Shown: positions 222 to 49,791 of the stretch, piece after piece
How positions within the stretch are numbered: position 1 is the stretch's first letter
Layout: each line of letters begins with the position of its first letter
DNA from: Epinephelus fuscoguttatus
Taxonomy: Eukaryota; Chordata; Actinopteri; Perciformes; Serranidae
DNA: 64,000 nucleotides
Reading direction: 5' to 3'
NCBI RefSeq assembly: GCF_011397635.1
Contig: NC_064771.1
Coordinates: 12,897,379-12,961,378 of the forward strand
The notes under the pieces: generated by a model
What the model was told of the DNA's origin: nothing
Database searches by the model: none
Seen by the model: the letters and a program-made list of their open reading frames with translations, nothing else
Program-made: the position numbers and the translations under genes

Positions 222-3200
222 GACACTGACAGACCTGCTGAAGCAGCAGGGAGGTGAAGTGAGCTCGGTGGAAAATGCCGCGGCCAGTTCGCCCAGCGGA
301 GGGAGAGCCAACGGCATTTCAGCCAGGATGCTGCGCAGCAGGAGTGGTGAGTACGGAGAGAGAGCATTCACGCACACACTGTAACACATTACACTACGAA
401 AACCTGTGTATATGTGCTGGTGTAAGTGAGTACAGTGACATTGTGTGTTTGTGTGTGTGTAATGTCAGCGAGAATCACGTTCCCATGCCAAATGACAAAA
501 ACATAGAACGCAACATCAGAGGAGCTCGACAAACAGCCTCTAAGGAGCAGTTTGGGTTCAGCCCATTTTGCATGTTTCTCTTTTGTCTATTTGCATAATG
601 AACAGTATCATATGCAGGGTCGCACATGGAATGAATTTCTCTCCATGCAGTTTTCATGACAGAGGAGTTCAACAACGACAGCTTGCGTGGTTGCTTTGGT
701 AAAGTGAAACGTTTTCTCTTAATACAGAAGATGTGTAAAACCTCCAAACAGAAATAAAAGTCTCAGAGCTCCCTTGACTTTATTAAAATAACATCCTAAC
801 ACAGCGCTGGCTAAATGTAATCACCAAAATCCCCAACAGAATTGAGGCAAGCAACTTTACACCACGTTTTCTTAGACCACAAAAGAAAACCCTATTTTAC
901 TTTTCTTTCTCTGTGTCAGTAACAACACATGCACTGTAAAAACACACACACATGCACATTACACACAGACTAGAAGAAGAAAAAGAAGCAGAAGAAAAAC
1001 CTCCCTTCTTTCCTACAACCAGAGTTCTTCCAGTCTGTCAATGTATTCCCACAGGCCTCCTTCTCTCTTTACCTCTCACCCACACACACTTACACTTTAT
1101 CTTACAGATGATCTCTGATGTTTGAACTTGGGATTCAAACAGGTGAGCTATCAGTCACAGTCCTGGGTCTACATCTTTCAGATTACTACAGAGCCGATTG
1201 TTAAAAGTTGTCTTAGTCTTTTTTTTTTTTTTTTTTTTTTTAAATCTAAACGCTGTAGAGGCAGAGATTGTTGAGACGTATGAGCCAAAAGCTCGTATTA
1301 CAGTATTTAATTTTCAAAACCACATGATGCCTTAACAGACCCTGTTTACAGTTGGTTTTAAGAGTTATCTGAACACAAGTAGATCTCCAGCTGACCACTT
1401 CTGTGCAGATTTTCTTACCAGGGATCCTACACATTTTTTTTCAAAGTTGCATACTTTTTAAGGCTTAAATTTCCAGACTTCTCAGTACATTTTTTGATCA
1501 TATTTGACATCTGATTACAAACAGCCGGCCATTCAGTCCACACACCTATGCAGAAAGGTGGATTCCACTGTTATACATCTTTGCCCAAAGAGGCAGAAAA
1601 TCTACTGGCCTTATCTACTTATATTATTTTCCTTTAACATATACAAACAAGAGTCAAAAATGAGATGAAATAAGTTAATTAAGTTAATTCCCTACACAGA
1701 AAAGACTACATCACTGCATAACCCACAGATGTTCACCCAGCTTAATAATAAGCATTTCTTTCAAACTAATTTGGTCATGGATGTACAGATTTGGCACAGT
1801 TATTACGCACGTGGGGGCAGAGCTGTTTTGCAGGCTGTGACGTACAGGCATTGAGGCAGCTGTGTAGGAGGGTGCATTCAGTCGCCATACTTATTGCCTT
1901 GCTTTTGACGTCATCAAGCTCGCTCTGGCCCATGAAAAGCAATCTCCACATATGATCGATTTATTTTTAGAAATATGTGCTTTTATATTTTCAAAATGGG
2001 GCAGTAGAATAAAAACAGTCATTTTTCCACACTCTCTTTTCTTTTTTTTCACACTTATCTAGACCTGAATATTAATAAAATTCAAATTCCATACTCTCCC
2101 ATACTGCAAAGGAACCCTGTGTTGCTGCTTACGTCACCTACACTGGAAAGACAAAAGCCCACACATACAGTACAGTTATTGCAACCACGCTCTCACCAGT
2201 CGCATTAGCAGGTGTGTTGTTACATCTGGAGATGTCTCTGTCAGTAGAATCTAACACGTCTCTTTCCATAGGGCAAAATGATGGATGGTCATGCAACACT
2301 TCATCTAACTCTTGGTAAAATGGGAAACTTGTAGAGTGTTGTCGTGATGTCACCAAAACAACCACCACTTCCTGCAGAAGTCCTTGTCGGGGACACATTA
2401 TGGATGTACAGTATAGACATCTGGATACAGCATTCATTCCTATGATGCTTAGTGCCACATGAAGCCAAAAAAATTTGACCTACTACTGGCTACTGGCAAA
2501 TTTTACAACTTTTACGACAAAATGATTTCAATAATGGCTTTTTAAGTGTTCGTACTTGAAAGCTGATGTACCACAAAATAGGGGTGGGGGAAATTTCCGA
2601 TTCTTAGATGCATCGCGATTCAGATGTGGACGAATCTGAATCAATTCACAAACGTCCAAATTTCGATTAATTAGAGTAATACAGAAGGTCCTAAATGATG
2701 CGGAACTAAGAAGCGCGGTACGCGTCATCTCTGGGACACTTTGGGATGCGCACCTGGAGCAGACACGCCGACACGCGCACAGAGGAAAACAAACATGGCT
2801 GACCGCCACCCACCTCGCCGTGAGATCCGAACAGCTCCTTCTAATTTAAAAGCAGATGTGTGGAAATACTTCGGCTTCTGCAACGTTGACGGCGGAAGCG
2901 AACTGGACAAGAGCCACGTTATATGTAAGCTGTGTCGTGCTAAAATTAAATACTTTGGCAACACAACAAACATGAGAAGCCATGTAACGATTCCACCTGA
3001 CAGAGGAGTCAGGGAGACGGCAGGCTGTTGTTGCTGCAGCTACTAGTGGCGCTACCGACCGGAGAACAATCGAGGAAACAATTAGAAAGCTGCCACCCTC
3101 ATCAGAAAAGGCCAAGCAAATTACGAAGGCCATCGCGGCATTTATTGCCAAGGATTTGCGTCCTTATTCCGTCGTGGAAAATCAGGGATTTTGAGCACTG

Positions 3201-14891: not shown

Positions 14892-17800
14892 CAGTGTGGA
14901 CATTCGTGAGCGTTACATGTGTGCCCATCCATCCCTGAGGCTGACATCAAGTGCGCTGGCTGCATCAGTGGACTTCATTAATGCTAATAGCCTGGGCTTC
15001 ACTCTCTCAGCCACTTTGTTCCATTGTTCATTAACCTCACTTCATTTAGCATGGGACTGGCTGGCCGTCAGGGTTGGGTTCCACTGCCTTATGCTTTAAC
15101 GCATTTTAAACCACGCTATTTTTGTTAACCCAGTATTTATGTGACATTCCACAGTTAAAATTCCCACCTGAGAGATTCCTAGTACAACCAGTGATGTGCT
15201 TTAGGGCCATGACACAACAAGCTGACTTCTAAGCATGAGAAAGGCCAAGTGATCAAACTCTTTCACCTAATGTCACCATGTCTCCAAAATATGGAGCGTG
15301 GACTGGTGGCTGGAGAGGTGCCAGTTCACCTCCTGGGCACTGCTGAGGTGCCCTTGAGCAAGGCACCAAACCCCCCAACCGCTCGGGCACCTCACCAAGG
15401 GCAGCGCCCTCACTCTGACATCTCTCCACTTTGTGCATGTATAGGTCCTGTTTGTGCATGTGTGTGTCTTTCGGACCTGTGTGTAATTGACAAACAAGAG
15501 TGAAAACATTGAATTTCCCCTAAGGGGGATTAATAAAGTAAATAAACTAAACTAAACTTATAATGTGAGAACAAGTTCTGATCTTGTGGGGAAAAGTTAT
15601 TATCTTGTGGAAACAAATTATTATCTTGTGGGAACATGTTAATTATCTTGTGGGAGCTAGTTAATTATCTTGTGGGAACAAGTTATTATCTTGTGAGAAC
15701 AAGTTATGATCTTGTGAGAACAAGTTATGAACTTGTGGGGAAAAGTTATTATCATGGAGGAACAAGTTATTATCTTGTGGGAACAAATTATTATCTTGTG
15801 GGAGCAAGTTATTGTCTTGTAGGAACAAATGATTATCTTGTGAGGGAAAGTTTTTTTCTTTTGGGAACAAATATTATCTTGTGGGAACATGTTAATGATC
15901 TTGTGGGAGCTAGTTAATTATCTTGTGGGAACAAGTTATTATCTTGTGAGAACAAGTTATGATCTTGTGGGAACAAGTTATCATCTTGCGGGAACAAGTT
16001 CTGATCTTGTGGGAACAAATTACTATCTTGTAGGAACAAATTATTATCTTGTGGGAGCAGGTTAATTATCCTGTGGGAAAAGTTATTATCTTGTAGGAAC
16101 AAATTATTATCTTGTTGAAATAAGTTATTATTTTGTGGGAACAAATTATTATCTTGTGGGAACAAGTTAATCATCCTGTGGGAAAAGTTATTATCTTGTA
16201 GGAGCTAGTTATTATCTTGTGGGAACAAGTTATAATCTTGTGGGAACAAGATATAATCTAGCGGGGACCAGTTATTATCTTGTGGGAACAAGTTATCGTC
16301 TTGCGGGAGCAAGTTAATTATCCTGTGGGAAAAGTTATTATCTTGTAGGAGCTAGTTATTATCTTGTGGGAACAAGATATAATCTAGCGGGAACCAGTTA
16401 TCATCTTGTGGGAACAAGTTATCGTCTTGCGGGAACACGTTATAATCTTGTGGGAACAAGTTATTGTCTTGTAGGAACAAATTATAATCTTGTGGGGAAA
16501 AGTTTTTTTTCTTTTGGGAACAAATATTATCTTGTGGGAACATGTTAACTATCTTGTGGGAACAAGTTATTATCTTGTGAGAACAAGTTATGATCTTGTG
16601 GGAACAAGTTATCATCTTGCAGGAACAAGTTATGATCTTGTGGGAACAGATTATTATCTTGTAGGAACAAATTATTATCTTGTTGAAATAAGTTATTATT
16701 TTGTGGGAACAAATTATTATCTTGTGGGAACAAGTTATAATCTTGTGGGAACAAGATATAATCTAGAGGGATCCAGTTATTATCTTGTGGGAACAAGTTA
16801 ACGTCTTGCGGGAACAAATTATAATCTTGTGGGAACAAGTTCATTTTTGCGGGAACAAATTATAATCTTGTGGGAGCAAGTTATTGTGTTGTAAGAACAA
16901 ATGATTATCTTGTGAGGAAAAGTTTTTTTCTTTTGGGAACAAATATTATCTTGTGGGAACATGTTAACTATCTTGTGGGAGCTAGTTAATTATCTTGTGT
17001 GAACAAGTTATTATCTTGTGAGAACAAGTTATGATCTTGTGGGAACAAGTTATCATCTTGCGGGAACAAGTTATAATCTTGTGGGAACAAGTTATTGTCT
17101 TGTAGGAACAAATTATAATCTTGTGGGGAAAAGTTTTTTTCTTTTGGGAACAAATATTATCTATCAACTATCAGCTTGGTGTGTCAGAGGCCTGCTCTAA
17201 GTATGCTCAAAACAAGTTTAGGGGCTTGCACACAATAATCTGCACCCACTTCAACAGAAATTGGGTGGGTATGTGAAATTAAGAAAGTATACAGGGATTG
17301 AGGTTCTTTTTCAAGCTCGCTTTTTTCATTCTTTATACAATTTCAACGCATTCATTCAATGAAGATCTGATTGTCCAGTGCAATGCTGGATTCCTGACCA
17401 GGCAACTGGAAATGGAAATGGTTTTTGCATCAGCCACCATATTTTGCTTACACGCTTGGCACATGTCCAATTTTTCTCCGAGATGCCATGAAATCCTACA
17501 ATTACAAGTTTAACTACGAATATTTTTGTCGAAATGAAGTGCCACGGTGGTCCACTGACAAGGGAGGGGCTTCACCTCTCTGGTATTTCTGTTTATATTG
17601 TGCTCACATGTTTCATATTCCCAAATCAATGTGGATAATCAAATTATTACCAATCAACTGGCACACATCAAGCGTTGGGCAGGCAGTATTATAACATACT
17701 ATGGAAGTACTGGTTAGATCTGGGGCTTCAGGCAAATTATAATGAAGCTGCCATATGAGGTCTGCTGTGCATGTTTGGTACTTAAAGGTGACATGGTGCT

Positions 17801-20800: not shown

Positions 20801-23800
20801 CGATGACCTCAGTTTTTAGTTTATTTAAATAATTCTCTGTGACATTCATGCTAGCCCATAACACACACACGCATGCACACGCACACTCCGGACTCAGGGC
20901 GAGGGTATTTATAAACCTTCACTGCTATGTCCCCACTTCCTGACACACATACCTTTACTTCCATCATCTCCATTTCACTCCTCAGTTCCTCCCTCCTCAT
21001 TGCTCTCCGTGACTTCTGCCCTCTCAAGCCCAACATAAGAGAAATACCGCGAGTGTTCACCCTAAGGGCATGCACCAATTGGAAATACTTAAATCACCAG
21101 CTTTCCCCTTTGATCTTCTTCAAACCACCCCCCTCATCCTGACCATCCTTCTTCCTCCCCTGATTCTTTCTATGTTATCTTTCCACTCATTTAGCATTTC
21201 ATATTTTCTCAACAAGAAAGTCCAATTTATATGTAATGGGAGAAAAAGTAACCTCTTTGGCTGCTGATGGGTCACACTGACCCTTCCAACTAGACACTGC
21301 TATTATACTTCCTCATTATTTTGCCATTTAACTTGTTTTCTGTTCTGTCATAACACTGCATCCTTCTTTTAGGCGTCTTCCTTTAAATTTTCACCTCCTT
21401 GCTGGCCCTCTAGTTTTCCTCCTAACTCGTCTCTCTTTTCACTTTTGATCAAAAGGTGAACTGTTTTAGTGTTTCTTGTTAGCATTTAAAGTAAGAAACT
21501 TTTTTAATAGCAACAAGTGATATTTATGGTATAATGTTACCTGCTAAAACAAAGTGTAACGGTAGCATAAGTGGAGAAGAGTCATAAATTCAGAAAACTG
21601 GCTCACCAATGTTAGTAAACCGGCAGTAACTCACAAAAGTTAGCTAACATTAGCTAACATTAGGCACCATAAGCTATTGTTCATACCAGATCGAGTGACG
21701 CTGCAACCCAATCACCAGAGTAAATGTTGGCATTGTACATTTCTGCAAACAACGAATACATTCCATTTGTATGTTATTATGTTGAAGTTTTCATATGTTT
21801 CAGTAATAACACTGTGGTTAGCGTGTGGTTAGGTTTAGGCAAAAAAAAACCTTATGGTTATGGTTAGGATATGATCATGTTTTAGCTTAAAATACCCGCT
21901 TTTGGTGGCACAATCCTAGCTTGAAAATGCAGCAACGTCTTGATTTCATGGCACTATCCTTGCTGGAAACACAGCAACATCTTGGTTATAAACAAAAGTT
22001 TTGGGGGAGTATTATTCCCAGTGGAAATACAGTGATGTTTCACTAAAAACCATACCATTTTTGGCTAAAAAGCCGCTGGAAAGACAGCGTCAGGTAAGTA
22101 AAGAACACCCAAGTTTTTGCTGAAAAACACTCTGGTTTGGTGGTTAAGAAGCTGCTGGAAACATAGCCACAGGTCACTAAAAAAGTCCCACGTTTTCACA
22201 AAAACACTCAGGTTTGATGGCTAAAAAGCCACTGGAAACACAGCAACAGGTCACTAAAGAACACCCACGTTTATACAAAACACAGTGATGGGTCACTAAA
22301 ACACCCACATTTCCCTAAAAAAAAAAGTCAGCAATGACTCGCTAAATTGTTGTCTGTTTGTTTCAAACAATAGTCTCCAACTTGGCAGGCATCTTGCCTT
22401 GGTGACATAGCATCCACCATCCATTCCACCTCCCAAAGATAAAGTAAACTTACATCACTTTAAACATTGATATGCCACATATGAAACCAAAATGTAACAC
22501 ATGCTTGGTTTGCTGAAACATACAATGCCAACATTTTCTTCTGGCGACTAGGACAGAGGCTTAAATGGCAACACCCGTAAGTGTATTAAATTGAGGTTTT
22601 ACTGCTTATCAATTTAAGTTTTCATCCCCAAGGAGAAAGAATGTCTAATTTCATGTTTCAAAAGTTGCATGGCCTCCCTTTAAAAGTTTCTAAAATACTT
22701 TGTGGAGCAAACAAACATGACATTGCTGACAGGTTGGAGCCGGGAGGTCCTCACATTAATGCATCATGGATTAAGTGTGATTCAGTCATCAGTGTTCCTA
22801 CAATGACAGACTCTGTGTTTGCACATTGACAGCTCATTTTAGGCTACTTCTGCATGTGACTCAGAACTGCATCAGACTGTGACAAATTGAAAATGACTCT
22901 AAAGTATAAACAAGTTTAAGTAGGCCAAATATAGCATGTGGATGCTGTACTGGCCTAATTGTTAAAGGTTGAAAACAGAGCACACTACAGTAAATTAAAG
23001 TATTATTTCCTTTAATTCCAACTTTTTAATTTTAAGTTAATCATTTCTCTCAGTTACGATAGCATTTGCCGAGTCAGATGATCAGACAGGTGGACAACTG
23101 TTTTTGCCAGATCATTTCAATTATATATCTTAAATGTCTGTAGCCCTCATTGCACAGGAAAACTGTGTAGGCACAACTACAGTAAGTACAGAAGGTCAAA
23201 GTTCAACCAGGAAGTCAGTCTGTAAAACACCTAAGATGAAAAAAAAATATATGTCCAAAGCTACAAAAATAACCATATTGTAATAAACTTTTCTCACCCA
23301 CCCCTTTCTTTGTTACAGCGCACAGTGCGTCTCGTAGCTACTACAAGAGCTTCCCACTCATGGACTTCTCCCAGTACCAACCTGTGGCACCTCCAGCCTT
23401 CCAGCCTGTGCCTCCACAGCCCAAAGAGAAGTCATACATCCACCAGCCTGTGTCGGCGCACCATGACCTCCACGCCCCTCTCTCCATCTCCATCCCCTCC
23501 AGCCACCTGGAGCATGCACGCCTCCCCAAGACCACCACGCACCCGCTGCTCTCCAGCTCTGCCTTCAAAGCCTGGGAGCCAACTAGCCGCCACGTCCACA
23601 GGCAGGCATCCGCCCCGGGGCACACCGCCCCTTCAATGCACAGCTCCACCCGCAGACAAGGCTACTCGATCCGGAGGCAGCAGAGCATAGAGAACATGCC
23701 GGATCTTTTTAGCCAGCCCTATGTAGGGGTGTACGGAGGAGCTGAAAGGGGGGCCGCGCAGGGGCAGCATGTACAGGGGCAACCCTCCTATTACCACCAC

Positions 23801-23851
23801 AGCAGGCAGAAGAGCTACTCCACCCACAGTACAACTGAGGTGACTGTCTGA
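222..23851 (+). CDS. shisa8: Shisa-family AMPA-receptor auxiliary protein, C-terminal three exons (partial, shisa8-like)
   Basis: Three coding exons join in frame: 222-346, 18085-18198 and 23319-23851 (stop TGA 23849-23851), each flanked by AG/GT and joined in phase 1. The first encodes TLTDLLKQQGGEVSS, which matches the juxtamembrane cytoplasmic segment of Shisa6-9 and is closest to the TELLKQ form of SHISA8. The second carries LNKYTSLKAVG, close to SHISA9/8. The third is a Pro/Ser/His/Gln-rich tail with an RRQQSIENMPDLF segment, ending in EVTV, the class I PDZ ligand of the CKAMP44/Shisa6-9 group. The signal peptide, cysteine-rich ectodomain and transmembrane helix must lie upstream of the window. 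Shisa6-9 proteins bind AMPA receptors at synapses and change their desensitisation. The choice of shisa8 over shisa9 rests on the first exon and on the DESI1/XRCC6 neighbourhood; membership of the family is firmer than the paralogue. Confidence 0.72.
2579..3719 (+). mobile_element. Non-autonomous hAT-type DNA transposon, internally deleted, with 8-bp TSD
   Basis: The element begins TAGGGGTGGGGG and ends CCCACCCCTG, whose reverse complement is CAGGGGTGGG, giving imperfect terminal inverted repeats. It is flanked by a perfect 8-bp duplication CCACAAAA at 2571-2578 and 3720-3727, the length made by hAT transposases. Subterminal runs of GATTC/GAATC lie on both sides. It is 1141 bp, far shorter than a full hAT element, and contains only the front part of a transposase, so it is a deletion derivative that could move only with an enzyme supplied in trans. 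Confidence 0.88.
2794..3384 (+). pseudogene. Broken hAT transposase N-terminal fragment with BED zinc finger (ZBED-like)
   Basis: From the ATG at 2794 the frame reads a BED-type finger: VWKYFGFC, then CKLCRAKI (Cys-x2-Cys) and a MRSHV helix with one His near residue 67. The frame breaks near 2990-3030. Transposase-like sequence resumes in another frame at about 3065-3384, with EETIRKLPPSSEKAKQIT, IAKDLRPYSVVE and CDAWMSVATESFVT, the last typical of the start of the hAT catalytic core. The rest of the core and the C-terminal dimerisation region are missing. It lies inside the 2579-3719 element, so it is a transposon relic and not a host ZBED gene. Confidence 0.8.
4128..4230 (-). repeat. Dispersed teleost repeat fragment, LINE-3'-end-like
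   Basis: The run CTTTATTTAACCAG followed by a GTGACCTGGTCAAGAGGACAGCA-like segment resembles a very common teleost repeat, in reverse orientation to its poly-A end. Recognition is from memory of the family; ends are approximate and no target duplication was found. Confidence 0.45.
4720..4930. repeat. Dispersed teleost MITE-like fragment
   Basis: The stretch includes GCCAAACTCAAGGCTTCAA and GATGTCACGGAAGC followed by TTTTTACAGTCT, phrases I know from a common non-coding teleost repeat. There is no open frame, and terminal repeats were not resolved. Confidence 0.45.
7050..7160 (-). other. Possible minus-strand exon or LINE reverse-transcriptase relic (FQYADDLNLF)
   Basis: On the minus strand a frame reads IPEQSVVISGRRFNIFQYADD and continues LNLFKGSNRRND, ending at a plausible donor (GACAG|GTGTGAG). 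YADD after hydrophobic residues resembles the reverse-transcriptase catalytic box of non-LTR elements, but no other RT motif is in frame nearby, and the segment also looks like a single well-formed exon. I do not recognise the protein. It is either an old LINE scrap or an exon of an unknown gene. Confidence 0.25.
8622..8745. repeat. 52-bp tandem repeat with internal inverted arms
   Basis: The unit GGGGGAACACTTTGGGCCTC plus TGAGAGAGCAGTGTTCCCCC plus ACTCCCAAAAGT is 52 bp and occurs about 2.3 times. Each unit pairs GGGGAACACT with AGTGTTCCCC, and CCCACTCCCAAAAGTGGG at the unit junction also folds, so the block can form a chain of hairpins. Confidence 0.8.
8798..9770. mobile_element. hAT-like non-autonomous element (inner, nested)
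   Basis: The left end TAGTGTTGTCACGGTACC and the reverse complement of the right end (TAATGTTGCAAGGTGGAAT) are related imperfect inverted repeats. Flanks are GTGACATC (8790-8797) and ATGACATC (9771-9778), 7 of 8 matching. It sits inside the 8596-9911 element and is therefore the younger insertion. No transposase frame is seen. Confidence 0.65.
11525..11601. repeat. Microsatellite (TG)n/(GA)n
   Basis: An imperfect GT tract passes directly into about 15 GA dinucleotides. Confidence 0.9.
12560..12715 (-). repeat. Dispersed teleost repeat (TACTTTTACTTAAGTAA family)
   Basis: Phrases such as GAATGCAGAACTTTTACTTG and TTTAAGTAAAGGATTTGAG are typical of a very common teleost DNA-transposon-derived repeat. 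No target duplication was resolved. Confidence 0.6.
13993..14070. repeat. Imperfect (GAT)n trinucleotide repeat
   Basis: A run of GATGATGAT with interruptions (AGTGGTAGT, GAAGATAGT). It lies in an intron and has no coding context. Confidence 0.85.
14167..14306. repeat. Paired (CA)n and (GT)n tracts
   Basis: GCGCGCGCACAC plus about 15 CA units (14167-14203) is followed 75 bp on by a GTGTGCGTGCGCGTGTGTGT tract (14279-14306). Both are alternating purine-pyrimidine and complementary to each other. Confidence 0.85.
14849..14886. repeat. Microsatellite (TG)n
   Basis: About 17 TG units, followed by TATGTGTCAGTG. Confidence 0.9.
15296..15553 (+). repeat. SINE/LINE 3' tail-type teleost repeat
   Basis: It contains GGTGCCCTTGAGCAAGGCAC, TGCATGTATAGGTCCTGTTT and the tail GAATTTCCCCTAAGGGGGAT followed by TAATAAAGTAAATAAAC, a widespread teleost retroposon 3' end on the plus strand. 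The AAATAAACTAAACTAAAC tail is a simple-repeat terminus and leads straight into the 21-bp minisatellite. Confidence 0.7.
15567..17163. repeat. 1.6-kb minisatellite, 21-bp unit, about 76 copies
   Basis: The core unit is GGGAACAAGTTATTATCTTG plus T (21 bp). Variants include GATCTTG, ATCTTGCGG, GAGCTAG and CATGTTAA forms. Each unit holds an inverted pair ACAAG/CTTGT around TTATTAT. Because 21 bp is seven codons, stop-free frames run on both strands (GTSYYLV repeats on plus, NNLFPQD repeats on minus). These are by-products of periodicity: there is no splice, start or composition evidence for a gene. A T-rich variant (TTTTTTTCTTTTGGG) recurs near 15850, 16503, 16922 and 17134, each time preceding the same order of variants, so there is higher-order structure. 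Confidence 0.95.
19054..19390 (+). repeat. tRNA-derived SINE-type teleost repeat
   Basis: The head GGCGGCACGGTGTTATGG runs into TGGTTAGCACTGTTGCC (A-box-like) and GGTTCGATCC (consensus RNA polymerase III B box), so a tRNA-derived promoter is visible. The body includes GGAGTTTGCATGTTCTCC, CCAAAGACATGCAGGTTAAT and CAGCTGGGATAGGCTCCAG, phrases of an abundant teleost repeat. The usual end after GGATAGGCTCCAG has decayed. Confidence 0.8.
20737..20761. repeat. Microsatellite (AC)n
   Basis: About 12 AC units. Confidence 0.85.
21890..22330. repeat. Degenerate ~78-bp tandem repeat
   Basis: Units such as AAGCCGCTGGAAAGACAGC, AAGCTGCTGGAAACATAGCC and AAGCCACTGGAAACACAGC start near 22067, 22146 and 22223. 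Each is followed by AGGTCACTAAAGAACACCCA and then an AAAACACTC(A/T)GGTTTG segment. The region upstream (TGGTTAGGTTTAGGC) belongs to a known type of teleost dispersed repeat. Confidence 0.75.
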
Positions 23852-42745: not shown

Positions 42746-43933
42746 GGAGTTAAATACACAACTCAACTGTGCCTTCATGAGCAGACAAACTTGTTCAGAT
42801 CAGTGTATCTGTTGCACCTCAAGTGTAGAATCGTCTTCAGACACTTTGTACAAACCAAGTTCTGGTGAACTGTGTGATCTATTTTGAAAGCAGGTAGCAG
42901 GTTTTTAATGTACAGTGTGGTCTGTGAAATTTGGGGACAGATCAGGACACTGTTCGGAGTGTTGAAAGAAAAGATTCCTGTTGTGCTTGATAAGATTAAA
43001 TCAGTTGAATTACCCTTTTGTTGTTGTCAAGGCATCATGGTTCAATACAGCTCAGTGCTAAAGTCTGCAGTAGGTGTGTCAGTCCTAGATCATATGAATC
43101 GTGTTTGAATTTCTGGACTCACATTGTACAGTAAACATACAGTCATAAAAATACTGTAACTAGGGTTGATAATCCTACGTTTGCATTAATAAAACCAAAA
43201 CCTTTTACAGCCCTGCATCCACTTTGTTTTATTTTTATAACCCCATGAGTCAGTACACTGTACATGTCGAGCAGCATTTCCAGTTTTTCTTGTAGCAAGA
43301 AAGAGGTGTGTTCATCCAAAGTAAGACCTCAGCATTATCATCATACCTGGACCTTCTCACTGCGCTCTGTTTGCCACTCAGCACAACAAAGTGAGAGCAG
43401 TGTTGGGGGCACGCCTGCACAGGCAAATGCCTCTGCACAAAAGCAGGAAGAAGAGATCACACACAACTTTGACCTCATGAGTTGCAACAGGTTTTGACAG
43501 ACTGGAAGTAGATGGCATTCCTGAGGAGGATTATCTGACTACACTGCAGGTAATGAGGCTGTAGGAACAGTTTGCCATTGCTATGGGATTAAATAGACTT
43601 TAACTACAGTATATTGTATGTGTTGAGTTTTCAAGTTGGTTTTTTAGTTTTGGTTTACCTTGTCTTGAAACTTTGCTACATGTTAACACAGTCTTTACTA
43701 GGTCTAAGTTGACTTACTGAATGGGAAAATGATATTTAGGCACTTTACTTTTGCCATAACAACATATTTAATCCTGCTACTGTTCCTAGCTTTGGTTTGA
43801 GTTGTGTACATATTTGTTTACTCGGGTGTTATGTTGAACTTTACGTGCTTTTATGTTGACAGTTCTGAGCAGAAACGCTGCCTCATATTGTCGCTACTTT
43901 AACACCGACTGAAAGTCTGACAGCTGAAGAGAA
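42746..43933 (+). other. xrcc6 3' UTR and short spacer before the AIG1-like gene
   Basis: The xrcc6 3' UTR probably ends just after AATAAA (43188-43193). The remaining 0.74 kb contains the presumed promoter and 5' UTR of the next gene, on the same strand. No repeats or TATA box were recognised. Confidence 0.55.
43188..43193 (+). terminator. Poly-A signal AATAAA for xrcc6
   Basis: Canonical hexamer 443 bp after the xrcc6 stop. Confidence 0.6.
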
Positions 43934-44660
43934 ATGGAGTGTCAGTGTGACAAGGACACCCCTGAGGATGCAGGTGAGGCGCCATATTAAAAATTCAATA
44001 AATATGTACCCTTAAAGACCTTAAAGATGTCTACTTCATAGAGTAAATAGAGTATTATTTGTAATTTAACTTCCTTTGTACGATAATTTAATTTAAAAAT
44101 ACGTTCAATAGTTTTCCATTACTCCCTTCAACTCGCATCAAATCTTGTACTGTAATATTGTGTCTTTATGGCTGCAAAACAAACGCCATTAGGTGTAGAC
44201 TGTGAAGTCCGTAGTATATTATGTCAAGGTAGCGTCAACATCGTTGTCACTTCCGGGTTAGCTTTTCAAAATTAAAAATAAAATAAAATAAATCAACGCC
44301 GCGTTACTTTCCTGTTCGGAAAATTTGAGAAAATTAACCAGAAATTCAACACTATTTAACAATGTGTGACGTAGGTTGATAATGTAATAAATCTGAAGCA
44401 ATTTCTTACTGTGCTATTTTTTTTAAATACTTTTTAATTTGTCAAAATAATAGTCTCTGACAGTAGTTGGGTTACTTCTCATTGAACAAAAGAAAAAGAA
44501 AATGTCAATCTTAACATGAGCTACCATACGTCCCTCCCATCCCATGATCCCAACATCTCAAATAACAAAAACAAGCAAAACAAACAAACAGAATAATATT
44601 AAAATAGATATGACAGTGATAAAAATAAGAGTACATACGTACATACACTCTTACACAGAT

Positions 44661-44702
<42 letters not shown>

Positions 44703-45312
44703 GGATAGATAGATATTACCGCAATAAATAAGAAAGAGGAGTAAAGTAAATGAAATAACTTAAAATTAAAAACAATAAACATGAGGGGAAAAAAGACATA
44801 TAGGAAATAAAAACTGGTTTGGTTCAGGAGATATTTTAGAAAAAAATATACTCCTTTCTTCTCTTTTCCCCTTCTTTTCTTTAATCCCTTCTCCTCTTCC
44901 TCCTCCCCTCATTTCCCACTACCTTATTACTTTTGTTTAATACCCATTTTCTGCATTCTCTTCCATCTTGCATCAAATAGTTTAGCTAGATTCCTAACAC
45001 TTAGTTGTGGCCCCTCCGGTTTCAACCAATCTGTTTGTTGTCTGCTTTAGTGGAGCTACTCTTAAAGTTTTACAAAGATACTTATCATTTTGTTGAGAGA
45101 GTAGTGGTGGTGTTCGGCCAAGTAATAATTGCTCGGGCCCTAACATTAGTGAGCACTGAAAAATGCTGTGTATCGCTTCCCTTATTTCTGTCTAACTCTG
45201 CTAAATTTAAGTTTCCTGCTGTCAAAACAATCCTGGAATGAGAGATTGTGATGTCAGCCTTTACATATAAAGGTGAAAATGAATGTAAATCTTGATATGC
45301 CTGCAGCCATAG

Positions 45313-45377
<65 letters not shown>

Positions 45378-48300
45378 GTCCTGAATTCAACAATATGCTT
45401 TTCAGATTTAGAGTATTTCATTCTCCATCTCACATTTGGGTGAAAGGTAAACCCCATGATAAGCTGTGTGCAGTACTAATGTCATGCTTTCCTCATTCCC
45501 CTCTCTGTTTAGGCTGGTGGATGAACGCCAACAGCGTCCAGATGGGAGCTTTTACCGTAGTGGGGTATCTTCTCTACAGATTCTCACAGAGTCAGTCACT
45601 CTCTGACACACATGCTCATACTCATTTGGCAAATACAGAAAGTTAGCCTGACATATAAGCCATGTTGTTTCTCTGATTGATTGACCTGTCCTCTCAGAGA
45701 TAGGGATATTAATGTACTACAAAGCACAGGAAATATAAAACAGATTAAAGTTGCTTGAAATGATCAGAAATGGTGGCGATGAGATCAGACATAAATGTTA
45801 TATCATGGGTTTAGGGGTCCTACTCACAGAGGGTGACCTCCAACCCACAAGTATTGAGTAGACAGATTTACAACAGACCTGTGCACATTCATTTGCTGAT
45901 CAAAAACACACATTTCTAAAGGATAAAGCAGGTGATACTGTGTGTTTTCCTAATGCTACAACATCAATAAATCCATGATGACCTCTGCTGTAATACTGAT
46001 AGTACTGTGTTTTTCCTGCAGCACTCCCAGCTCTGATCCGATGGCCCATTCGTCTGTTCTGCTCTGTAACGGGTGAGAGTAGTCAGAGTGGTATATCAGT
46101 GGTCACTTTGTCGTCTTCTTCACAGTCTGATTCTAACTGACAGCGCACAAAACCGTCAGTACTGTCATGTTGTTGTAAAATAAAATCACCAGATCATTAA
46201 TGTGTGTTCTGCCTCAGGTCTGTCAGCTCTTTGGGGCTGGGTGAGCCGCCTGGTGGGAACTCTTCGTGGTATGGAACACTCTTTTCTGACCCATAGGAAT
46301 CAAGTAAAATATAACATGTGAAGTCATATGCTAACTTTTCTTTTATGTCTCAGTAATCAAGAGCCTGTGCAAATGGCTGTCTCGAGTTTGGAAGTTTTTT
46401 GCAGGTGAGTGCTGGTTGCATTTGTGTGTGTTGTTTGCTCTTTATTGCTTCATTTGAACCTTCTATGCGAAGGTAAACACATCAGGAGAAGTTTTCAATA
46501 TGAGTGTCTGGGTAGTCTGAGGAAGTGACTCAGAAATTCAGCAGACACATGACAGCAATTTAGTATCTGAATGGAGTGGGGCTATTTTAGCGATAGAGCT
46601 ACATGATAATTATAGGCCTATAATCAAGCAGCTGCAATCTGCTCCTCCACCAGCGTCTTCCTCCAAGTTCAAGTGGCTGGTTGCTGTCATCACAGGTCAG
46701 TTCACCTTCATTCTCCTTTAGGTACATGGTTTTGGGTTTTCTCTTTGTGCTGTTGACAGTGGTGCCCCCAGAAAGTTTTCATAGGGGTGACCAGATGGGG
46801 CCCCTGAAACTCTTGGGGTGGCACACCAAAACCAAAAGCCATAAATGAATTCAAGGAATTTGATTATGCCTTTGAGGTAATGGGCTTGTTATGTGGCAAT
46901 AAGGAGAGTTAAGGAAGTATCTCACGTGAATATACAAATACTGGTCCAGCTAACATTTTGAGTTTCACAACAATCTGTTTAATATGTTACATATCTATAC
47001 ATGTCAAGCTGAAAACACACTGGCACAGCCGCGGAATGGGGCATCAGGTGACATGCAGCTCGTCAACAGACGACCATACAACGTTAATACTACTTTTACT
47101 GAAAGATCTGTACTTCCTCCACCTCTGCATTAGCCTAAAATCATGTGTGGAAACCCATTAATTTAAGTTGATTTCTCACCTTAAGAGCTAGTCTCCAGAG
47201 CTATGACTGGCCAGGAAGTAATATCTTTTTGGCCATGGTCTTTATAATGCCTGGATTGTGGGTCGTTTAGCTCATTTCTTGACCTCAACAACGAGTCTCT
47301 CCTCATCCATTCTTCATCACAAGAGACACAGCTACAACAACAAAGTTCTCTTTATGCATCATTGGTGAAGAGAGGAGTCGAGCTGCCATAGGAGCTGAAA
47401 AAAAGAGCTGTTGCAGGAACATTTACTGGGATCAAGCCTTCTCAAGTTTAGGGAAGACTCATGGTTATCCATAGAACTCATTTTCTTTCAGAAATCTTGA
47501 GGTGAGAGTTTAAGGGACCCTTCAAAAATGGCCATGTCAGTTGTTCCCTCATGAAATTTTAGCCTAACTGTCGACTGTTTTTTAGCCCCTTTCCTGACGA
47601 ACTATGTTGACATTGTTGGTACCAACAGATGCCTTACTGTACGTTCAAACCAGAAGCTTCCAAAGAGCCAAAGCCAAAGCCAAAAATATTTGTGGCAGCT
47701 TTGGTCGCTCTAGTTGCTCATCACATGAATCATTCAACATTCGATCGTGCTTGTCAATTTAAAGGAGCCAAAAGGCAGACTACTGGCTTGAAAGCAGCAT
47801 TGTTGCTGCTTGCTGTCATCCAGTCAAAAAGCTCATAGTTGGCCTACAGAGAGTTATGTTTGGTCATTTAAAACAGAAAACGTATGTCATCCCATTTGAA
47901 CCAAACAAGGAAGACTTGCATGCTACGTCACAACATTAGGCTGCAATTCTCTCCTCTATTACTAACATTACACACTTTAAAACTCACCAGACCAACCAAC
48001 TACCTCCACGACACGTTCCCAAGCCTCATTCTTTTTATTTTGGTCTCTGTAACCAAACAGCGGCACATTATAAAGGACTGAGTGGCCGCGAACGCAAGTA
48101 ATAAACTTCTCAATATCCACTGTCGGAACAAGTGTGCTGTAGGAACCAAAGTTACATGGCTTGTTCTCTGGGACCCGCTTCATCAGAGCACATCAGCATT
48201 CCGATTGGTTGCTACGGAACCGCATCAGGCCTCATTACCATAAAGTTAAACGAGTTTTAACTCCCCTCCAGACCGCTCCAGTCGCTTTGGTCACCCAAGA

Positions 48301-49391
48301 CACGCGGCTGACGACCAGGTTGCCCCGGTCGCCGGGCTCTCATTGAAAATGAATGACTTCCACCGTTTTGGAAGCCCTCGTCGCTGTTGGTTTGAACATA
48401 CAGTTAGGCTGTCTAGTTAAAAAAAATCCACTACCTTTACACCACAACCTCCTATAGACAGTAAGGTCAGCCTCCAATTATTTTTGCCAGGAGGGGGCCA
48501 GTGGGGGACCAGCAACTGTATCAGGGTGGCCAAGCCTGGGGCCCCACTGTCTGTTAAATCTAAGATATTAAAACCACAAGATCCACTCGCTCAGGCCCAG
48601 CTGGACTGAGAATCACAGCTCTTCCCAAAAGTGCTTTATTATTTATCTGATAAAAACTTGTCACCTCTGCAGGGTCATCCACAGATGGAGCACTGGAGTC
48701 AGGGACCAACAAACCAGGCCTGAGACTGATCCTCCTGGGGCCCACAGGTGGAGGACGGACCTCTCTTGCAGATACTTTGGTGGGCAACAGTGAGACAAGG
48801 GCACCCATGGGTCCCTTGATGGAGAGCACCAAGAGAAGGATAGTAGTGGATGGTAGAGAAATTGTAGTGATCGACACTCCAGATCTTTTGGGGCTGTCAT
48901 TGGGGAACACCAAGAGAGCCAGGGAAGCTCTGAGGAGCCTTCAGCTCTCCAGTCCTGGACCACACGCCTTCCTGCTGGTGATCCGAGCTCCAGGCTCCAG
49001 CATGGGGATGGACCAGGATGCAGCTCAGGCGGTCCGAGCCACTCTTGAGCTGTTTGGCGACGGGGTCGTGGGGCACATCATTCCAGTGCTCACCCATGCA
49101 GACCGTCTGGGTCGAAAGTGTAGTGTAGATCAGCTGCTGGATGCAGACTCTGGGGGTCTGAAGAGGGCTCTGTCTCTATGTGACCAGAGGCCAGAGTTGG
49201 TGGACAACAGACCAGACTGCCCCCCAGGGGCACGGGGCGTGACACGCAGGCAGCTGGTGGAACGTGTGATGGAGATGAAGACACTTAGGGGGCATTTCAT
49301 CCACGAGCTGCAGAGGAGTGAGGACCGCATGAGGGAGGAGCTGCTGGCAGACATGGGCTCTGCACTGGCTAGAAAACTGGGACACATGTAA
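43934..49391 (+). CDS. Orphan AIG1/GIMAP-like protein with degenerate GTPase motifs and tryptophan-repeat N-terminus
   Basis: Seven exons keep one frame, all joined in phase 1: 43934-43973, 45513-45590, 46022-46072, 46218-46268, 46354-46404, 46654-46695 and 48673-49391. They give 1032 nt, 343 aa. Residues 1-13 are short and acidic. Exon 2 is hydrophobic (MGAFTVVGYLLY). Exons 3-6 each encode a 14-17-residue segment centred on Trp and flanked by Arg/Lys. Residues about 121-320 are an AIG1-type G domain: LRLILLGPTGGGRTSL (G1), VVIDTPDLLG (G3), HAFLLVIRAPG (AIG1 conserved box), PVLTHADRLG (G4) and CDQRPELVDNR (G5-like). GIMAP/AIG1 proteins are GTP-binding scaffolds at membranes, many with immune roles. 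Here the P-loop Lys is Arg133 and the DxxG Gly is replaced (DTPD), so normal GTP hydrolysis is doubtful. The C-terminus is a charged helix (residues 300-340) and lacks the family's usual terminal membrane anchor; the anchor may have moved to the N-terminus. AATAAA at 49792-49797 is a likely poly-A signal. A pseudogene is unlikely, since all splice sites and the frame are intact. I know of no named orthologue. Confidence 0.82.
44659..44713. repeat. Microsatellite (GATA)n
   Basis: About 13 GATA units with one GATG interruption. Confidence 0.92.
45314..45375. repeat. Microsatellite (CA)n
   Basis: About 31 uninterrupted CA units, the longest dinucleotide tract of this type in the window. Confidence 0.95.
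46022..46695 (+). repeat. Array of tandem mini-exons encoding a Trp-centred repeat
   Basis: Exons 46022-46072, 46218-46268 and 46354-46404 are each exactly 51 bp; 46654-46695 is 42 bp. All are phase 1-1, so each can be added or skipped without changing frame. With the split codon as residue 1, each segment reads x-L/I-x-A/S-L-x-R/K-W and then usually xxR(L/V): TLPALIRW, GLSALWGW, VIKSLCKW and ASSSKFKW, with Trp always residue 8. This register, phase and size point to repeated exon duplication. Confidence 0.85.
46757..48549. mobile_element. hAT-like element filling intron 6 of the AIG1-like gene
   Basis: The left end CAGTGGTGCCCCCAGAAA and the reverse complement of the right end (CAGTGGGGCCCCAGGCTT) are related inverted repeats. 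Flanks GCTGTTGA (46749-46756) and TCTGTTAA (48550-48557) match at 6 of 8, as an old 8-bp duplication would. It makes up about 1.8 of the 1.98 kb of this intron. A second repeat is nested inside (47631-48409). No transposase frame. Confidence 0.6.
47631..48409. mobile_element. Nested inverted-repeat element
   Basis: GCCTTACTGTACGTTCAAAC (from 47631) pairs with the reverse complement of the segment ending at 48409 (GCCTAACTGTATGTTCAAAC). The arms go on to CTTCCAAA on both sides. Superfamily not assigned; no coding frame. Confidence 0.65.
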
Positions 49392-49791
49392 ATAAGAGAG
49401 GGAGAAGGAGAGAGAGAGTGTGTGAGACAGAGTTGTTGGGGCAGTGAAAAAATAAGGGGGCAGGACTCATTCAAGTGTTAAACATGCAATTTTGACTTTA
49501 AGTGCAAGGGTGATTCTGCGCCTGAGGTATTTTTGTCAATCCTGGTTTACCACTGTCCAAATGAATTTACTACCGCTGGACAGCTTTTGGTTTTCAACAT
49601 GCCGCAGATGCTTTTGGTTAGTTATTATGCCCACACACACTTAATTTTCCTGTTTTGATGTGTTGTAATTCTTCAGTGTCTGTATATTCTCTTGTACAGG
49701 CCTCACATTTTCTTACTCTGCTGCGGTGCATGGCCCACCTCTGTCTTTCATAATTCATAGGAGATATCAAACTTTAAAGATGATCGTGGAA

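Follow-up and report, generated by a model that had tools for sequence, protein, structure and literature searches.

A stretch of 64,000 nucleotides from Epinephelus fuscoguttatus (contig NC_064771.1; hereafter the window) contains, on its forward strand at 43934-49391, a seven-exon gene that appears to be a real, divergent member of the AIG1/GIMAP family with an unusual N-terminal leader. The seven in-frame exons described in a first-pass annotation of this DNA were confirmed: their spliced frame of 343 amino acids has no stop codon, and all six introns have GT-AG boundaries and lie in phase 1 (Table 1). The interpretation placed on these exons at that time is partly supported, as set out below. 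An in-frame TGA is located three codons 5' of the start codon, whose context (AGAGAAATGG) was rated good, and exon 7 is contained in an open frame of 245 codons. Because exons 2 to 6 are each a multiple of three nucleotides long and share the same phase, any one of them could be skipped with the reading frame kept.

The splice sites were ranked with a simple matrix among the 322 GT and 389 AG sites found within 43900-49450. The donors of the gene took, in order, ranks 2, 59, 4, 19, 1 and 5, and its acceptors ranks 2, 8, 15, 5, 33 and 17, which puts most of them among the best sites of the region, with top-ranked donors at exons 1, 3 and 5. When strong phase-1 exons of 30-120 nt were sought blindly, three candidates came up, namely exon 3, a shortened form of exon 3, and exon 5; exons 2, 4 and 6 fell under its thresholds.

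Table 1. Exons, protein motifs and polyadenylation signal of the AIG1-type gene, in window positions.
Feature	Position	Strand	Description
Exon 1 (40 nt)	43934..43973	+	Initiation codon and short acidic N-terminus; covers residues 1-13 plus the first nucleotide of codon 14
Exon 2 (78 nt)	45513..45590	+	Moderately hydrophobic segment; weak donor
Exon 3 (51 nt)	46022..46072	+	17-residue repeat 1
Exon 4 (51 nt)	46218..46268	+	17-residue repeat 2
Exon 5 (51 nt)	46354..46404	+	17-residue repeat 3, the most amphipathic
Exon 6 (42 nt)	46654..46695	+	Possible shortened repeat 4, within background
Exon 7 (719 nt)	48673..49391	+	Linker, complete G domain, C-terminal tail, stop codon
AIG1 domain, residues 121-316	48720..49307	+	Pfam PF04548, 3e-25
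G1/P-loop GPTGGGRTS	48738..48764	+	Arg where Lys is usual
G3 DTPD	48873..48884	+	
G4 THAD	49092..49103	+	
Poly-A signal AATAAA	49792..49797	+	

The AIG1 domain lies wholly within exon 7 and scores 89.2 bits against the Pfam profile (cut-off 27, E 3e-25), covering profile positions 1-196 of 212. Like the mammalian GIMAPs that are its best matches in the PDB (GIMAP2, 9.6e-19; GIMAP5, 2.1e-16; GIMAP4, 3.2e-14; GIMAP7, 3.3e-14; GIMAP1, 2.5e-12), the protein has an AIG1 G domain in which the G1, G3 and G4 motifs can be recognised. The profile and structure matches thus bear out the earlier assignment of the gene to the AIG1/GIMAP type; exon 7 gave no match of note in NCBIfam.

The family was surveyed in the genome of the same fish (1,046,998,120 bases in 26 contigs, the window being C20:12897379-12961378). 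A search with PF04548 gave at least 154 matches (150 of 195 candidates scored), and those listed are spread over 14 contigs. The location of this gene outside a GIMAP cluster, which had been taken to suggest a lineage-specific gene, is therefore nothing out of the ordinary here. Among the matches listed, contig C20 has one other AIG1 match, an incomplete one at a distance of about 14.5 Mb. With exon 7 as the query, 111 matches were obtained, the closest after the gene itself being L010 (C23:14251367-14251921) with 37% identity over 190 residues (query 15-204, E 9.1e-20). Three AIG1 matches follow one another in the region of L010 and L083 (C23:14244303-14251921, minus strand); two of them are inside one open frame of 1889 codons, unusually long for this family, and a TGA occurs within one of these two matches.

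Part of these loci were fetched, giving a sample of 103 non-redundant domain sequences, the window gene included. In each case the top-scoring acceptor immediately before the domain or within its first part was recorded, and 27 of the 103 domains fell below threshold. Among the 76 callable domains, the acceptor is in phase 1 in 72 (the window gene being one of them), in phase 2 in three and in phase 0 in one. Thus, a G domain carried by a single exon that begins in phase 1 is ordinary for the family in this fish; the last exon alone does hold the G domain, as had been noted, but this is the family rule and not a peculiarity of the gene. Excerpts of PMC7053062 likewise describe snail AIG genes as having mostly one exon per AIG1 domain. 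A G-domain exon placed behind a phase-1 intron could be joined to any phase-1 leader, which suggests a simple reason for AIG1 domains having many different partners.

The G3 motif (DTPG or DTPD in the family) and the G4 motif (T-H-x-D type) are present as DTPD and THAD. DTPD was found by pattern in 5 of 99 domains of the genome and occurs in human GIMAP2 as well. In contrast, the P-loop GPTGGGRTS departs from the usual G1 pattern GxxxxGK[ST], which fits 81 of the 103 domains by a crude count, in which five rows labelled ET match further along and 13 rows, including fragments, match nowhere. Since accepted members without this pattern exist, membership in the AIG1 family rests on the whole-domain score. 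The P-loop Arg was also considered as a unique mark of the gene and was rejected, as L016 (by pattern) and five inner C6 domains (by eye) share it.

This substitution brings in the possibility of a pseudo-GTPase, in which the fold would be kept as a scaffold while hydrolysis is absent or nucleotide is barely bound owing to the P-loop Arg. The departure from a G1 pattern followed by most domains of the genome points in this direction; the retained G4 motif, the G3 motif shared with human GIMAP2 and with a few domains of the fish, and the presence of the same Arg in other family members argue the other way. Judged from the motifs, a pseudo-GTPase is a possibility to be taken seriously, if not the one we would expect, and it would be compatible with the reading of the whole gene that we prefer below.

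Phylogenetic analysis placed the window gene at the end of a very long branch. In a large tree of 100 rows (99 from the genome plus a fragment of human GIMAP2; rows of fewer than 180 residues were dropped) it is the longest tip (2.29) and stands next to a group of 11 divergent, dispersed genes (support 81/87). In a small tree of 30 chosen rows no other tip is as long as its own (3), and several of those 11 genes are its neighbours once more (87/84), at an unresolved fork; both runs warn that its placement is unsure and that its letter make-up deviates. These weakly placed nearest relatives are dispersed over contigs C13, C15, C19, C21 and C23 (for example L010, L017 and L083). As in the window gene, at least 9 of the 11 have a phase-1 acceptor ahead of the G domain; in contrast to its DTPD, their G3 motif is mostly of the PGW type. 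The safe statement is that the gene is very divergent and has no close paralogue among the matches found. Its very long tip speaks against a recent copy, and conservation is not thereby shown.

A long branch together with a deviant composition could also mark a relic in the course of decay into a pseudogene. With an open frame of 245 codons, six intact splice junctions and recognisable G1, G3 and G4 motifs, such decay appears highly improbable. Relatives of exon 7 were also sought among viral contigs (9 pattern stretches) and prokaryote contigs (229 stretches), where none was confirmed, a result that says nothing on other fish.

The unusual part of the gene is its basic, Trp-rich leader of small repeated exons. 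Residues 13-108 (96 residues) contain no Asp or Glu, and residues 15-105 include 11 Lys or Arg and 8 Trp. Exons 3, 4 and 5 encode three alike peptides of 17 residues, each corresponding to one 51-bp exon. Their likeness gives a summed BLOSUM62 score of 45, as compared with a shuffle mean of -48, and none of 20,000 shuffles scored as high. At the DNA level, the same exons share 25, 22 and 18 of 51 positions in pairwise comparisons, and this low identity indicates that the repeats are old. Exon 6, considered as a shortened fourth repeat, scores 11.3 and is within background (best background exon, 15.3). A scan of the introns for further copies of the 17-residue exon (43900-48800, 61 candidate exons) found none above background, exon 6 being the next best after exons 3-5 and their variants, with a self-match counted in the scores of exons 3-5.

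Taken as helices, the leader exons are unevenly amphipathic. Exon 5 is clearly so (helical moment 0.445, equalled or exceeded in a fraction 0.0004 of 5000 shuffles), and exon 3 is amphipathic as well (0.322, shuffle fraction 0.018). A helix at residues 72-89 has a moment of 0.508, reached in none of 5000 shuffles, a value that is overstated because the window was chosen as the best of many; the per-exon values are fairer. Exon 2 is moderately hydrophobic (its best 19-residue window has a Kyte-Doolittle mean of about 1.1). The description of the first six exons as a hydrophobic segment followed by a repeat array holds for the repeats of exons 3-5, applies to the hydrophobic segment in a moderate sense, and does not rise above background for exon 6.

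No counterpart of the leader emerged from the searches made with it. Against the genome of the same fish, it gave five matches with E values of 10 or less, which by their coordinates are exons 1 to 5 of the gene itself, so that no copy was recognised elsewhere, the dispersed AIG1 genes included; this search missed even exon 6, and diverged copies elsewhere could have escaped it. Nothing significant was obtained in Pfam (the best being Melittin, 0.18, under the cut-off) or in the PDB (best match 1.3). Among the titles and abstract openings found in the literature, none describes the gene or its leader, and a search for GIMAPs with an N-terminal transmembrane segment yielded no paper.

The lack of any significant match beyond the gene itself fits the view that the G-domain exon is real and the leader model partly wrong, with another start, skipped small exons or different joins. 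The weak acceptor of exon 6 (rank 33 of 389) would also be explained in this way, as would the weak exon 2 donor considered below. Opposed to it are the repeat likeness of exons 3-5, the uniform phase 1 of the introns and the top-ranked donors at exons 1, 3 and 5, a combination unlikely by chance. We therefore consider a partly wrong leader model unlikely.

Mammalian GIMAPs are GTPases of lymphocytes. According to excerpts of PMC8201404, GIMAP1, GIMAP3 and GIMAP5 have C-terminal membrane anchors, and GIMAP2, found on lipid droplets, has a C-terminal double hydrophobic segment. The same excerpts report that GIMAP2 forms GTP-dependent dimers and that GIMAP7 can stimulate GIMAP2. Compared with this layout, the N-terminus of the fish protein is indeed unlike that of the mammalian GIMAPs, in line with the first proposal: the protein has a long basic leader of repeat exons, along with the P-loop Arg, and lacks a hydrophobic C-terminal anchor, since its ten top Kyte-Doolittle windows fall either in the leader or, with starts at 161 and 225-229, within the G domain. 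Membrane segments at the N-terminus are not unheard of in the wider AIG family, as membrane segments in several topologies are predicted for the AIGs of the snail Biomphalaria glabrata in the excerpts of PMC7053062. Set beside the fish gene by description only, the snail proteins are similar in that the AIG1 domain is usually contained in one exon, and differ in that a repeat-exon leader is absent from the description in those excerpts.

Taken together, the gene probably encodes a functional, divergent and apparently single-copy AIG1/GIMAP GTPase, with a leader that we infer to be a membrane-attachment device. The moderately hydrophobic stretch of exon 2 and the basic, Trp- and Leu-rich exons 3-5 that follow would be embedded in an intracellular membrane or rest on its surface. 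The G domain would then be left in the cytosol, where it could oligomerise in a nucleotide-dependent manner like GIMAP2 and GIMAP7. Such a topology would be the reverse of the C-terminal anchoring of mammalian GIMAP1, 2, 3 and 5. The leader may have been assembled from symmetrical phase-1 exons joined in front of the phase-1 G-domain exon of the family, and the repeat array may have arisen by duplication of one 51-bp exon. By the usual rule for signal-anchors of the mitochondrial outer membrane, the acidic first 12 residues, the moderate hydrophobic stretch and the basic C-terminal flank would suit such an anchor; the surface of lipid droplets or of the endoplasmic reticulum would be alternative sites of attachment.

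Several observations weigh against this proposal. The maximum 19-residue Kyte-Doolittle mean of the leader is 1.3, as compared with the usual transmembrane cut-off of 1.6, and a classical transmembrane helix is unsupported. The helical moments of exons 4 and 6 are not significant (shuffle fractions 0.084 and 0.57), and the donor of exon 2 is weak (rank 59 of 322). In addition, the P-loop Arg in place of Lys may weaken nucleotide binding. Finally, the gene model and the leader are predictions made from genomic sequence, which also counts in favour of a partly wrong leader, and they come from one fish.

If membrane attachment through the leader is true, this front-tethered relative would mean that the G domain of the family can function on a membrane whichever way round it is tethered. 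A more far-reaching proposal, which we regard as rather doubtful, is that the gene represents an old, distinct subfamily of fish GIMAPs with inverted topology, in which a modular leader, encoded by duplicated 51-bp exons and tunable through their skipping, would form a series of membrane-binding helices and tether to the surface of an organelle a G domain that has the P-loop Arg and is perhaps impaired in hydrolysis.

The flanking genes agree with the position first given for the gene, between xrcc6 and a josephin gene. The upstream neighbour was identified as xrcc6 by its Ku (1.8e-10), Ku C-terminal arm (8e-7) and SAP (1.1e-10) domains in Pfam and by the PDB match to Ku70/XRCC6 (1jjr, 3.2e-37). 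The downstream neighbour contains parts of a Josephin domain (the best at 1.1e-9) and matches Josephin-2 in the PDB (1.4e-17); two more Josephin pieces (2.3e-5 and 0.0015) are below the curated cut-off. We take this gene to be josd1 and not josd2. As to the otherwise conserved block suggested at first, human XRCC6 and JOSD1 are presumably not adjacent, lying about 3 Mb apart on 22q13.

Elsewhere in the window, Rfam gave no match at gathering scores. A frame of 192 amino acids at 23273-23848 (+) ends in TTEVTV and has no Pfam match; it would resemble a shisa-type protein's terminal exon, with an end that binds PDZ domains. Long frames of a short repeated peptide on both strands at 15582-16859 suggest a minisatellite rather than genes. 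An open frame at 2699-3046 (+) encodes a BED-type zinc finger (zf-BED in Pfam, 4.9e-9) and may derive from a DNA transposon of the hAT type. Downstream of the AIG1 gene, a stretch about 2.3 kb long contains a tandem duplication with a spacing of about 1.28 kb, which looks recent because its copies are 99% (53834-54133/55119-55418) and 96% (54579-54878/55858-56157) alike over 300 nt.

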